NCBI RefSeq assembly: GCF_963855985.1 | Contig: NC_087109.1 | Coordinates: 1,260,001 to 1,324,000, forward strand | Origin: Ostrinia nubilalis | Lineage: Eukaryota > Arthropoda > Insecta > Lepidoptera > Crambidae | Length of the DNA: 64,000 nucleotides | Direction: 5' to 3' | Translations under genes and position numbers: made by a program | Notes under the pieces: generated by a model | Seen by the model: the letters and a program-made list of their open reading frames with translations, nothing else | Told to the model about the DNA's origin: nothing | The model's database searches: none | Part shown: in pieces, positions 14,058 to 23,100 of the stretch | Layout of the letters: each line of letters opens with the position of its first letter | How positions within the stretch are numbered: position 1 is the stretch's first letter

Positions 14058-14171
14058 CGGTGAGCGCGAACAAAATAGCGAAGCGAACGGAGCTCGCGCC
14101 GAACAAAGGCGGCCCGTTCGCGGCTGCTCTGCGAACGCTCGCCAAGAACGCGGGGCCCGACGCCAAGGACG
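14058..14171 (+). CDS. GSE1: GSE1-like exon A (conserved [10 protein letters not shown] block)
   Basis: The acceptor tttctttccag and donor GTGAGT bound 114 nt. The exon enters in phase 1 and leaves in phase 1. It encodes 37 full residues including [18 protein letters not shown], the block most like vertebrate GSE1. GC content is far above the flanking AT-rich intron. An upstream coding exon ending in phase 1 is required, so the apparent GTG/ATG-like starts here are not initiators. Confidence 0.75.
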
Positions 14172-17100
14172 GTGAGTGCTTACTGCGCTGCTGCCTCAAG
14201 CTCTGCTGGTGGAACACGCAACTACCCTCATTTCCCAATCATTTATATAACGCCCTTGAGAGAAACCTTGTAAACTTTCAAGTCATGTTGAAATTTTTGC
14301 GTTTTCCACCACCAAAGTTATCCCTTTTCATTTTTTATTTTCGTTCCTAAAGCGATTTATATTCGGGCCAACACTTGTTGGGTTTCGTATTAGTCCATAC
14401 TGTTTTCATTACTGCTAGGAATACCTTTGATTACTTACTCGATTATTTGCATATCATTGTGATGGTTGACCAAAGTGTTTCAGTCACTTTAGTCAATCTT
14501 TTAGCTTTTGTAAAATGTTTGTTATCTTTATATTTATTAAGCTTTGTGCATATTTGCAATTAGTTCTGTATTTGTGTAACCATAATCTTTTTGTTTTTAA
14601 GAGTCGCTTCGATCCGGCTCAAAGGACCAATTTTCCTATTTATATGACTTCATCTTTAAATATTTTAGTATTAGTACTTGAATGTAATTTTGTGCTAAAG
14701 TATTAATATTTTGAATGATATGCACCCAGAAAGGTCACCATGAATCAAGGATCGCTCATTTTCATATTCTTATCCTAAATTACTATCATCTAATGTAGTG
14801 TCGCAACTGGTTGATTTTTGGTCATTTTGAAACTGATTAAAATTCCCAAAAATCATCCATTATATCCGATTATCAATTAATATAAAAAATCGTAATAAGC
14901 ACTGACTTGTTGCTAAAATTTAAAAAAAAACCAAGTCAGACTATAATCTTGATTGATCCTGTTCAAAAAGCCTTAAAATCCTATTCAAAAAAGCTTGAAG
15001 GATCTTTTGAAAAAGTGAAAAGAATCATCCTTCATAACAATATTATTCTGCCACAAATAATCATCAATCCTACTTAAAAATCCGGCTCGAAGGACCAACC
15101 GTCCTCGACCCTTCTCGTAGCAATATTATTCCGCCACAAATAATCATCAATCCTACTTAAAAATCCGGCTCGAAGGACCATTTAGTAAGGCTCGAAGGAC
15201 CAACCGTCCTCGAGCCTTCCCGTAGCGGCCGTGTTCAGTGTGCGAGTGTGCAGGCGCCGCCGCCGCCGAGCCGAGCAAAGAGAAGCCGCCGCCCGCCGCC
15301 AAGCGTGCCTCGCCGCACCATCTGCCGTCCAGCGGGTTCCAGCCGTATAGACCTGATGATAGGTGAGTCATGCTCACATTATCTATACATGTAATAAATC
15401 TGTACAGAGGTCAATTCTGTACATGAAATATATTTTCAAAATAACTATCAGGGGGTGATTAGTGATCGATACTGATGCCAAAAATGCAATCAGTAAAATT
15501 TTTGTCTGTCTGTCTGTCTGTATGTTCCTTATAGAAACAAAAACTACTCGACGGATTTTAACGAAACTTGGTACAATTATTTGTACATTCATACTCCTGG
15601 GCAGGTTATAATATACATACTTAGGAATTCAACTTAAAGCTTAGTTACAACAGGATATTGCAAAATTCCCACGGGAACGGGAGTTGGCGGGAAAAAACAT
15701 TTGTATGAAAAAATCTTAACCGCGTAAGATAGATGAAGGGGGTAAAACGGGATCCACGCGTACGAAGTCGCGGGCGGCCGCTAATAATAAAATATTATTA
15801 GGGTTTCACTAAAAACTTCAAACACACTCAAAAATTCTTGCCAGGCGATTGCTAACTGCTGAGCTACTTAGACATTGGGTAAACCCGACCTCTTTTTGTT
15901 TTGGTGGTAAAAATGCATTGATTTGCATACCCGCCGCTGTAGTAGCGCGACGGGTATGTGGGGCTCTCTCCTCCAGAAGGGAGGGACCTATAAACCTGAC
16001 CCACCTTAAGCAATTTCAATTTCTTTAAGTTCTTAGAAGTTAACATTATATTCTTATTAATAACTAAATTCGTTCCAAGATAGCTATCCCCTCATCCTTT
16101 ACTGGTTAGGTTTCATTGGAGGCCAAACTGCAGATCCTGGTTAAACAGCAGTTTGCAGTGGTGGAAAAGAGGTGGCATTAGTCCCGGAAATTTTACTCAT
16201 TGAAAAATTGGAGAAGGTCGTTTTCTTGTAGTGAAGTCTAAATGACCTTAATATCATGAATAATATTTTAAAACCTTAGGCTTTCTTATTAACCAGAGGT
16301 AAAAAGGTTTTGGCGTGTTCGCATATTTTTTCCTCAGTCGCCTCTTATGACATCCACGGGAAGAGTGGGTCCTATTCAACTCTAACGGAACCATAAACAA
16401 TGAATGTTTGACTATTAGAATTCTCCCCACAGCAGACAGTTTCACCAAAACATAAAATACAAAACTTTGACTAATACAACAGTTCTTCCCACAGCAGACA
16501 AGTCTCATCAAAACATAAATAACTAGCGGCCGCCCGCGACTTCGTACGCGTGGATCCTGTTTTACCCCCTTTTCCCGAATTTTCTTTGCTATAAACCTCA
16601 CGGAGCCCGAGACCTTTCCAACGAATGCAAAACCGTGGAAATCGGTTCGTGCGTTCTGGAGTTATAGCGTCAGGGAGGAAAACCCGACTTATTTTTATAT
16701 AGTAGATTTTAATCTTTCAAATAACACCAATATTGTTGGGGCACCATGTGATTGTGTCAGTAGAAACGAGTTTTCCTGTAAAACGTAGGTGGGCCGATTT
16801 TTGTGATGACCAGTATAGTTTTCCCCACAACAGACAGTGTCATCAACACATTTATAAAATACGAATCTTTGACTAATATACTTCTCTCCACAGCAGACTG
16901 TCGCACCCGGCGGCGGCGTCGTTTCCACTGCTGGAGCCCACCGCCTACTCGCCCTACCACCCCAGCCTCTATTCCAGCGCAGCGCTGCAGTACAGGTAAA
17001 GCGCTTTATTTATTCATTCAATAACATAGTAAATTGTACTCTTAAAACTAGGTACACTTCCACTTCTGAAGCGATAGATGGATACTGTAGAGGCTGCATG

Positions 17101-20100: not shown

Positions 20101-23100
20101 GCTCTCGCGCCGCACCTGCCGCACCCGGGCGTGTTCCTGCGCGCGCCGCTGCTGCCGCCGCCGCTGCTGTACCGGCCCTACCGGCCCTACGCGCCCTACC
20201 CGCCGCCGCCAGACCCTGCGCCGCCGCCCGTCTCCGCAGGTAGCTAGACCTCTCCGCCGCACCCGGGCGTGTTCCTGCGCGCGCCGCTGCTGCCGCCGCC
20301 GCTGCTGTACCGGCCCTACCGGCCCTACGCGCCCTACCCGCCGCCGCCAGACCCTGCGCCGCCGCCCGTCTCCGCAGGTAGCTAGACCTCTCCGCCGCAC
20401 CCGGGCGTGTTCCTGCGCGCGCCGCTGCTGCCGCCGCCGCTGCTGTACCGGCCCTACCGGCCCTACGCGCCCTACCCGCCGCCGCCAGACCCTGCGCCGC
20501 CGCCCGTCTCCGCAGGTAGCTAGACCTCTCCGCAGGTAGCTAGACCTCTCCGCAGGTAGCTAGACCTCTCCGCAGGTAGCTAGACCTCTCCGCCGCACCC
20601 GGGCGTGTTCCTGCGCGCGCCGCTGCTGCCGCCGCCGCTGCTGTACCGGCCCTACCGGCCCTACGCGCCCTACCCACCGCCGCCCGAGCCCGCGCCGCCG
20701 CCCGTCTCCGCAGGTAAGTCAAAGTCAAAATTTCTTTATTTGTTTGGACTAATAAATAGTTCTTACAAATCGTCATATGCTCTTAAGGAGCCTCTACATG
20801 TCTCATAATCTTTTTACCCTACCAGCACTTCGAGACCAACATTTGGCAAGTGCTGAGAAGAAGCGCCGCAACAAACTCAGTCACCACTGTCTGCCGGTTA
20901 ATATAAATAAATAGAAATAGTAGTATTAGGTACATTCGATTCGGGAGCAGTTCACTGAATTTACCATGCATTCTTGTATGGTGTATCATAAGAATGGGTA
21001 TACAAGATTGCGTGGTATATTAAACAAGGTAGTGACGTGCTAATATCTAGACTTACATATTAAGGTACTAGTAGAAATGACTCGCATACATAAATTTGAA
21101 TAACTTGGATTGACCAGTCCCCGAAAGCAGCGCCTGTTCACAGACATGACGAGTGAACCAGCCATCGCTTCACTCGACCATATTAGAGGGAATGTAACGA
21201 CCCGCCGGTAGCTAGAGACCTCTCCACAGCCGCCCTGCTCTACCGGCCCTACCATGAACACCGGCGGCTCCCTCGATGATCCTCCCTAGCCTGCGATGAG
21301 CTCTCGACAGCCGCCCTGCTGTACCGGCCCTACGCGCCTTACTCTACATCAGTCCTTGATGACTGGTCTTGAACCTTGGAGGCTAAACTTAGACGTTGAT
21401 GCTCGGACCTAACATTTGGTAGCTGGTCCTGGGCTTTGTTGGACGGTTAAAAACCGGCCCTAGCACTTTATGGCTTTACGGTTGAAAACCCACGAGAAAT
21501 TAGCAAACCATTACTAGTCCCTCCCCTCTCATATTAAACTGCGTTGTAGTATTATAACAACTATAAAAAATATGAAAAACAAATTGGTCACAAGTTGTTG
21601 TCATAAATTGAAAATGATTTCAATATTTAATTTCATTAAAGAGATTGCCAATGATATCCACCCACAAAATTCTATTAAAGCATCTCTCTTAAAATCACAA
21701 GCTCCGCCCACTTTCTACACAGCCAATAAAACCTGGCCTGTTCATCTCCGCGAGTTTACATCGAAAACAAAACACGCACGATGGCCCACCTACAGGATAC
21801 TATTCGACAAGGCCTCACATACGAGCGAACATTGACTCATGCACGCGTATTCTTGTGTATGATGGAAGAAAATAAAGAAAATGGTGTACTAAATACTGTG
21901 CAGTATTTAACTGCCTAAATAATAATAAAAACACAGAATGTACTTTTTTAAGTTGCCTCAAGACACTGAGAGGTAAATAAGTTGTTAATATTATTCATGA
22001 TAATTCATGCTAAATCATGTATTTCCTCCGCCATTTTCCGCTGTTTGACACCTCACGTCACATCATTTTACCGAAGTCAGCCCTATAGCTTCGGCGCAGT
22101 GTCGATCACTGACGTTTGTCAACAAAATGGTGCTTGACTCTTGAGACAGGCTAAATTACACCATATTGATAATGACATTGAGCATAACTTTTTTTAAATA
22201 CCTTCGCGAAGTAAAACTTCTGTACGTAGTAGGGTGATTGCTATAGTAATTGGCCTGTACATAGTTATTGGCCACCTTGGCTAAAATAAAAATAAACAAG
22301 CATATGTACGTTATTAAGAGTGGAAAAGAGACACAAATACTTTCTCTGAGCAATACGCTGTCCAATGTAGTATGTCAGAGTAAGAACAGATGGTACTCTA
22401 AACAGCAGAAGCTTTCTTTCGACAACGAGTCGTCCGAGTAGCCGCATGCTTGTCAAAATTTTAAGGTAAATATTTATGAATATTGTTCGTAATCTAATTG
22501 TTTTTGCTTGTTATAGTAATTTTACTGTTTTTTTGTAAAGAGATAAATGGTAGCTTATGTAGATAGATTAAGTTACTTGGTTTTGGAATAAAATAACTTT
22601 AAAATTATACCGGCCAATAACTATACCACGTTTCAATTTATTTCAGTTATTGGCCATGGGTGGCCAATAATTAAATTTTACTTTTATTGTATTTTTATTC
22701 ACGATTAAGTTAATTTAACCCTTAAATATTTGCTATTAAAATACTAACGTCCTAACCTATTAGGATCAGTAATTAGCCGGGGGGCCAATTACTGACACTT
22801 ATGCACGGCCAATAACTATTTTTATTGATTTACTTTACCTAGATTGTTACAAGATGCCGTAGGTAACAAAGTATACTAAGGTTGGTATAAGTAGTTGGAT
22901 CAGAAACACTTAATCAGTTTAAAAAAATAAAACAAATAATACCTGAAATGCAAAACAATGAATTTTTTTTATTCTCTATCGTTTGTGGGACTATTTATTA
23001 TAAGCAAAATGGATTGGAAGCGGAAGTTACAGATGAACCTGAACCTGTAAGTCGGGAGAAAGAATCAACATTGAGTGAAATAGGAGAACTTAAAACTAGA

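Follow-up and report, generated by a model that had tools for sequence, protein, structure and literature searches.

How does a gene come to carry rows of copied splice sites at several of its exon borders and keep its reading frame? This question is raised by a GSE1 gene of Ostrinia nubilalis, which lies in a 64,000-nucleotide (nt) stretch of contig NC_087109.1 (assembly GCF_963855985.1, positions 1,260,001 to 1,324,000 of the forward strand; hereafter the window, in whose coordinates all positions are given). An initial annotation had described five exon borders of this gene as hit by tandem repeats. We found copied splice sites at four of its ten borders, namely the C acceptor, the D donor, the E acceptor and the E donor; the fifth array is intronic, ending at 15226, 27 bp short of the exon B acceptor (exon B starts at 15254), and no splice site is copied in it. 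In the four splice-site arrays, only the exon-most site preserves the conserved frame and the additional copies lie on the intron side, an arrangement that fits the survival of duplications unfelt by the protein. We consider it probable that these arrays arose by ordinary local tandem duplication that was then filtered by splicing.

Gene model and splice-site arrays

Joined in silico, exons A to E give a 281-residue open reading frame (ORF) that matches lepidopteran proteins. The best match is P0001 from Papilio machaon, which bears the UniRef name Genetic suppressor element 1 (E 7.4e-101), followed by a protein of Tuta absoluta (E 1.9e-97) and partial matches to proteins of Leptidea, Scirpophaga, Danaus and Vanessa, all of which are Lepidoptera. 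The exon borders used here are those predicted from these matches together with the splice consensus. A Pfam search of the A–E protein returned 0 families, and searches of the window with three partial proteins for each side found no exons before A or after E. The Tuta protein runs continuously from D into E, which, as a comparison of proteins rather than of orthologous DNA, fits an old intron at this position. Exon A ends at a donor reading ACG|GTGAGT, and neither of its borders carries an array.

The arrays were located by self-comparison of the window, Tandem Repeats Finder, a repeat search and a scan for splice sites, whose approximate matrix underlies all bit scores given below. These approaches agree, and the C array was not revealed in the Tandem Repeats Finder list. 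As had been proposed, the units at all four borders include a splice site with exon and intron bases on either side of it, and the five arrays are unrelated in sequence (a BLASTN hit at an E-value of 0.01 in 0 of 10 pairwise comparisons), which argues for independent duplication events. Their ages differ as well: the E arrays are 98–100% alike and the C units about 77–80% alike, and the D array is layered.

The structure of the individual arrays required some revision. At the C acceptor, four units of 62–64 bp had been described; the copies do number four, and their exon starts are 16436, 16498, 16834 and 16897, but the spacing of 62, 336 and 63 shows that the array is split, other DNA interrupting it at about 16520–16800. 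Each C copy holds CACAGCAG or CACAACAG plus about 11 exon bases. Five units of about 330 bp had been counted at the D donor, where the array in fact comprises nine donors over 1.3 kb (18140, 18264, 18475, 18625, 18766, 18951, 19090, 19301 and 19449). Five type-1 copies, spaced 335, 156, 320 and 350, retain exon sequence close to exon D and are interleaved with older, diverged type-2 copies (18264, 18766 and 19090) that contain stops in all three frames; 19449 marks a further diverged copy. The donor sequence is AAG|GTAAGA in seven cases (10.9 bits), AAG|GTGAGA in one (10.8 bits) and AAG|GTAAAA in another (7.0 bits).

The three 89-bp units reported at the E acceptor were recovered as described, each with an acceptor ATTCGCAG or GTTCGCAG followed by AGAGCGC, plus a weak inner donor AAC|GTAAGA. 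The E donor array, previously read as four 138-bp units, consists of three exact 138-bp units, 4.3 copies of a 20-bp unit and a last copy. It presents seven donors (20240, 20378, 20516, 20536, 20556, 20576 and 20714), six of them reading CAG|GTAGCT (6.7 bits) and the last CAG|GTAAGT (12.8 bits), and every one doubles as an acceptor-like CCGCAG|GT (8.1–8.4 bits). Copies 1 and 4 differ by three synonymous codons and one non-synonymous codon.

Table 1. Exons, repeat arrays and associated repeats of the GSE1 gene, in window coordinates.
Feature	Position	Strand	Basis
GSE1 exon A	14058-14171	+	tblastn to Papilio, Tuta, Leptidea, Scirpophaga, Danaus and Vanessa proteins
Two intronic repeat blocks before B	15032-15226	+	66 nt and 38 nt, each 95%
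GSE1 exon B	15254-15362	+	Protein match, frame
C acceptor array, four copies	16389-16907	+	Self-comparison, splice-site scan
GSE1 exon C	16897-16995	+	Protein match, frame
GSE1 exon D	17867-18139	+	Protein match; productive donor predicted at 18140
D donor array, nine donors	17955-19519	+	Repeat search, self-comparison, splice-site scan
E acceptor array, three 89-bp units	19729-19997	+	Tandem Repeats Finder, 98% matches
GSE1 exon E, conserved-frame reading	19989-20239	+	Protein match; predicted productive donor CAG|GTAGCT at 20240
E donor array, seven donors	20118-20716	+	Tandem Repeats Finder, splice-site scan
Dispersed repeat starting inside last E donor (GTAAGT)	20715-20823	+	Related copies elsewhere in the window
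Probable decayed E donor unit pieces	about 21205-21333	+	Two 36-nt copies, 92% alike, each with CTGCTSTACCGGCCCTAC

Some further observations concern the same gene. At 16892–16899, the acceptor of exon C is doubled (CAGCAG); the frame is kept from either of the adjacent starts, 16894 and 16897, and the second is the one that fits the relatives P0001 and P0002. The proteins of Danaus (P0011) and Vanessa (isoform X2, P0012) terminate in DGE right past exon A, where the window reads DGEC (14171–14180), as if the exon A donor had been read through; one GSE1 isoform may be without exons B–E. In P0001 of P. machaon, the exon B–C segment is present twice in nearly identical form, possibly a second case of duplication in GSE1 or an assembly error. 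The B–C intron carries 53-nt inverted repeat arms (94%) at 15736–15788 and 16519–16571, 730 nt apart, the latter adjoining the interruption of the C array. In the C–D intron, a near-palindromic stretch (17617–17777) is flanked by perfect 27-nt inverted arms (17516–17542 and 17778–17804).

Reading-frame effects of the extra sites

The initial annotation had offered selection for splice-site redundancy as one explanation of the arrays. We joined the exons in silico using each alternative site and read the resulting frame. Whichever of the eight extra D donors is used, the reading stops at one and the same residue, 198 of the A–E reading, because the GTAA of the first D donor is an in-frame stop. 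With any of the six extra E donors it stops at residue 283, where GTAGCTAG supplies the stop codon. Reading through either extra E acceptor runs into a stop at residue 212, which is avoided if the acceptor opens a 34-nt microexon, at the cost of a frameshift in E. With the three extra C acceptors, the stops fall at residues 103, 81 and 87. Among the extra sites at C, D and E, none yielded the same or an in-frame product, as a back-up splice site would. The extra sites thus supply no spare protein, none of the copies is predicted to act as a working spare site, and redundancy in its simple form is not supported.

Duplication load of the gene

As a background for the gene we took 25 stretches, each of 10 kb, drawn from 21 contigs of this genome and used without exon annotation, and counted as local duplications those with an offset of 30–400 and at least 60 bits. 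Local duplications cover 2762 of the 6663 bases of the gene (41%) and 13254 of the 250000 background bases (5.3%). The background held 33 duplication loci, and 7 of the 25 stretches had none; the richest 6663-bp sub-stretch (in L016) reached 2466 bp, below the value for the gene, and one stretch (L001) held five separate loci within 10 kb. When background arrays were binned at 600 bp, 6 of 35 were at least 95% alike. The GSE1 gene is therefore an outlier in the amount of duplication, and the local mutational process suggested in the initial annotation stands to the extent that the gene is rich in duplications. Targeting of exon edges by that process is another matter: ten random positions within the gene region had array coverage not below that of the borders (p 0.51–0.83), and shifting the ten borders around the window gave p 0.02–0.16 depending on settings. 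As to whether repeats are equally dense elsewhere in the genome, the gene total exceeds the background, and its borders do not exceed random positions within the gene.

History of the D and E copies

The type-1 D copies carry a trace of the coding exon. Across 17970–18137, their distinct differences from exon D comprise nine synonymous sites and one non-synonymous site, with an expected synonymous share of 0.21–0.28 (p 7e-6 to 7e-5), in a count made by hand from the alignments that drops the unit-edge changes at 17952 (a stop), 17961 and 17964, as well as 18006 (truncated edge of D3) and 18129 (gap placement). Inclusion of the three unit-edge changes gives 9 of 13 synonymous (p 0.0003–0.002), and inclusion of all changes plus the synonymous D5 change at 17964 gives 11 of 16 (p 6e-5 to 7e-4). 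This synonymous excess fits snapshots of a functional exon, and the simplest reading is that the type-1 copies would have been seeded by repeated copying of the live exon at different times. Patterns among the copies conflict at 18015, 18027, 18051 and 18087, as expected from exchange between copies.

We also considered whether the type-1 copies could be translated as extra exons. D2, D4 and D5 have an in-frame stop at their upstream edge, no usable acceptor was seen by eye between that stop and the coding-like part, and D3 is truncated. We rejected this reading, since the near-synonymous pattern would be better explained by copies seeded from the live exon. The likeness between type 1 and type 2 is not a mere effect of GA-rich low complexity, since a type-2 copy and exon D are identical at 56 of 83 aligned bases and the maximum among 5000 shuffles was 46.

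At the E donor, related copies of the dispersed repeat occur at 2397–2503 (minus strand), 47190, 48779 and 49005. They align from 20715–20721 onward, that is, from within the last donor, which suggests that the strong GTAAGT may have been supplied by an inserted element. The two probable decayed pieces of the E unit sit beyond this repeat, at 21217–21333.

Interpretation

On the reading that we favour, short tandem duplications are frequent in the GSE1 gene, and at four borders the copied segment would have happened to span a splice site. As long as the exon-most copy still joins the conserved frame, additional copies would turn into intron sequence, which selection on the protein would hardly see and which could spread by unequal exchange, and duplications within exons would alter the protein and be lost. 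If the copies are neutral, the case shows that strong decoy splice sites can accumulate in large number in a gene whose reading frame stays intact, and such arrays would point to where intron growth by duplication may be sought. Our literature search found no report of such arrays in GSE1 or in Lepidoptera.

Intron gain by tandem genomic duplication has reportedly occurred in potato. The model for such gain involves duplication of an exon segment bearing AGGT (PMC3443670). GSE1 resembles it in that AGGT-bearing exon sequence is copied, AAGGT in D (AAGGTAAGA) and CAGGT in E (CAGGTAGCT), and in that the E copies could serve as donor and acceptor; the model creates a new intron, whereas the GSE1 segments already held a border, so that an existing intron would be enlarged. 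Genes in human segmental duplications have internal tandem repeats at exon–intron boundaries, and these, like the GSE1 arrays, are intragenic, span the boundary and are able to change intron structure. The human repeats differ from one paralog to another and for the most part extend coding repeats, whereas in GSE1 four borders are involved and the copies are intronic (PMC2812944).

Several observations weigh against ordinary duplication filtered by splicing as a full account. It does not account for the excess of duplications in the gene over the background. When one progenitor unit per array was dropped at random onto the collapsed gene, the probability that at least four of five cover a border was 0.007–0.016, and of 18 ORF ends, belonging to nine other long ORFs of the window, none lies in an array, against four of the ten borders (Fisher p 0.010, these ORF ends not being verified splice borders). 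In the type-2 copy at 18264, the donor block matches the exon at 23 of 24 positions and the exon side at 64 of 100 (p 0.001), a retention that plain decay does not predict. Across 20 D copy pairs, which are non-independent, donor-block retention had p <0.05 in 14 (all above 0.0009) and 0.056 in one, and was non-significant in the five pairs with copy 19449 (p 0.10–0.48).

The kept donor block could mean that the D copies have a selected role, which is possible, either as an off-switch that sets the frequency of unproductive splicing or as binding sites for U1 small nuclear ribonucleoprotein (snRNP) that define or protect a long intron. The common truncation at residue 198 is consistent with an off-switch, as is the presence of seven donors reaching 10.8 bits in 1.4 kb, where 0.10 would be expected from the genome background, and in the old type-2 copy it is the exon part that decayed. 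In the human gene DOK7, the intron-proximal of two competing donors is favoured and is also the stronger one. Intron 4 of that gene and the GSE1 D intron both have several usable donors, predicted ones in GSE1, of which one gives the full-length frame; the DOK7 donors are two and lie 11 nt apart, against nine over 1.3 kb at exon D (PMC5585400). Nevertheless, we judge this role rather unlikely: most copies are recent, and the strength of their donors may just reflect youth; the type-2 donor at 18766 (GTAAAA) has weakened; and conservation takes in bases +7 to +16, which lie beyond the usual consensus of donors, so that gene conversion may explain the kept type-2 block as well as donor selection does. 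A version dependent on copy number, in which the donors compete, only the exon-most gives the full-length product and the length of the array tunes GSE1 output, with donors selected while the copied exon decays, seems to us unlikely. If the D donors were selected, a conserved gene would be under repeat-length-dependent splicing control.

The event-level and ORF-end tests bear on a mutational process at exon edges, for instance breaks at R-loops or at exon–intron composition steps followed by tandem-duplication repair, which would also suit the unrelated units at four borders. Both tests were chosen post hoc and, because the gene was noticed for this very pattern, the exon-edge excess is only a hint. 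We regard such a process as doubtful, given that the borders are not enriched at the duplication density of this gene, that the case is a single gene chosen for its striking look, that the B array and other arrays of the window are not at known borders, and that the unannotated background approaches the gene in density (L016) or in locus number (L001). The AG|GT of the E donor copies would allow a ratchet, in which CCGCAG|GT would act as acceptor and then as donor, the weak GTAGCT being spliced to the last copy and GTAAGT regenerated. All seven E copies score as both sites, the alignment of the dispersed copies begins within the last donor, and Drosophila ratchet points are such juxtaposed acceptor and donor sites; these are conserved, lie in long introns and are seen as spliced intermediates, whereas the E copies are known from sequence (PMC8605326). 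This ratchet appears quite improbable, as the scores rest on an approximate matrix, GTAGCT may be enough alone, and the first piece to be removed would measure 474 nt at most, whereas ratchet points in Drosophila sit in long introns. Copies added or collapsed during assembly are a very improbable cause overall. The identity of the three 138-bp and four 20-bp units, like the 98% likeness of the 89-bp units, would suit such an error, and it may still apply to the near-identical E arrays; for C and D it is unlikely because their copies differ, being diverged and internally structured, with the C array split by other DNA. The sampled contigs, at 13.8–19.7 Mb, are like those of long-read assemblies.

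Other features of the window

Repeats also occur away from the GSE1 gene. A 265-bp tandem duplication (99%) lies outside recognised genes at 10197–10727, and large complex local repeat arrays are found at 48550–49257 and 50584–52360. At 36484–36599, a 21-bp tandem repeat of 5.1 copies runs in frame within an 895-residue ORF that has no Pfam match. Neighbouring genes with Pfam matches encode a FUN14 family protein (34065–34547), an RNase T exonuclease domain (54375–54806) and an NF-X1 zinc-finger protein (55514–57991).

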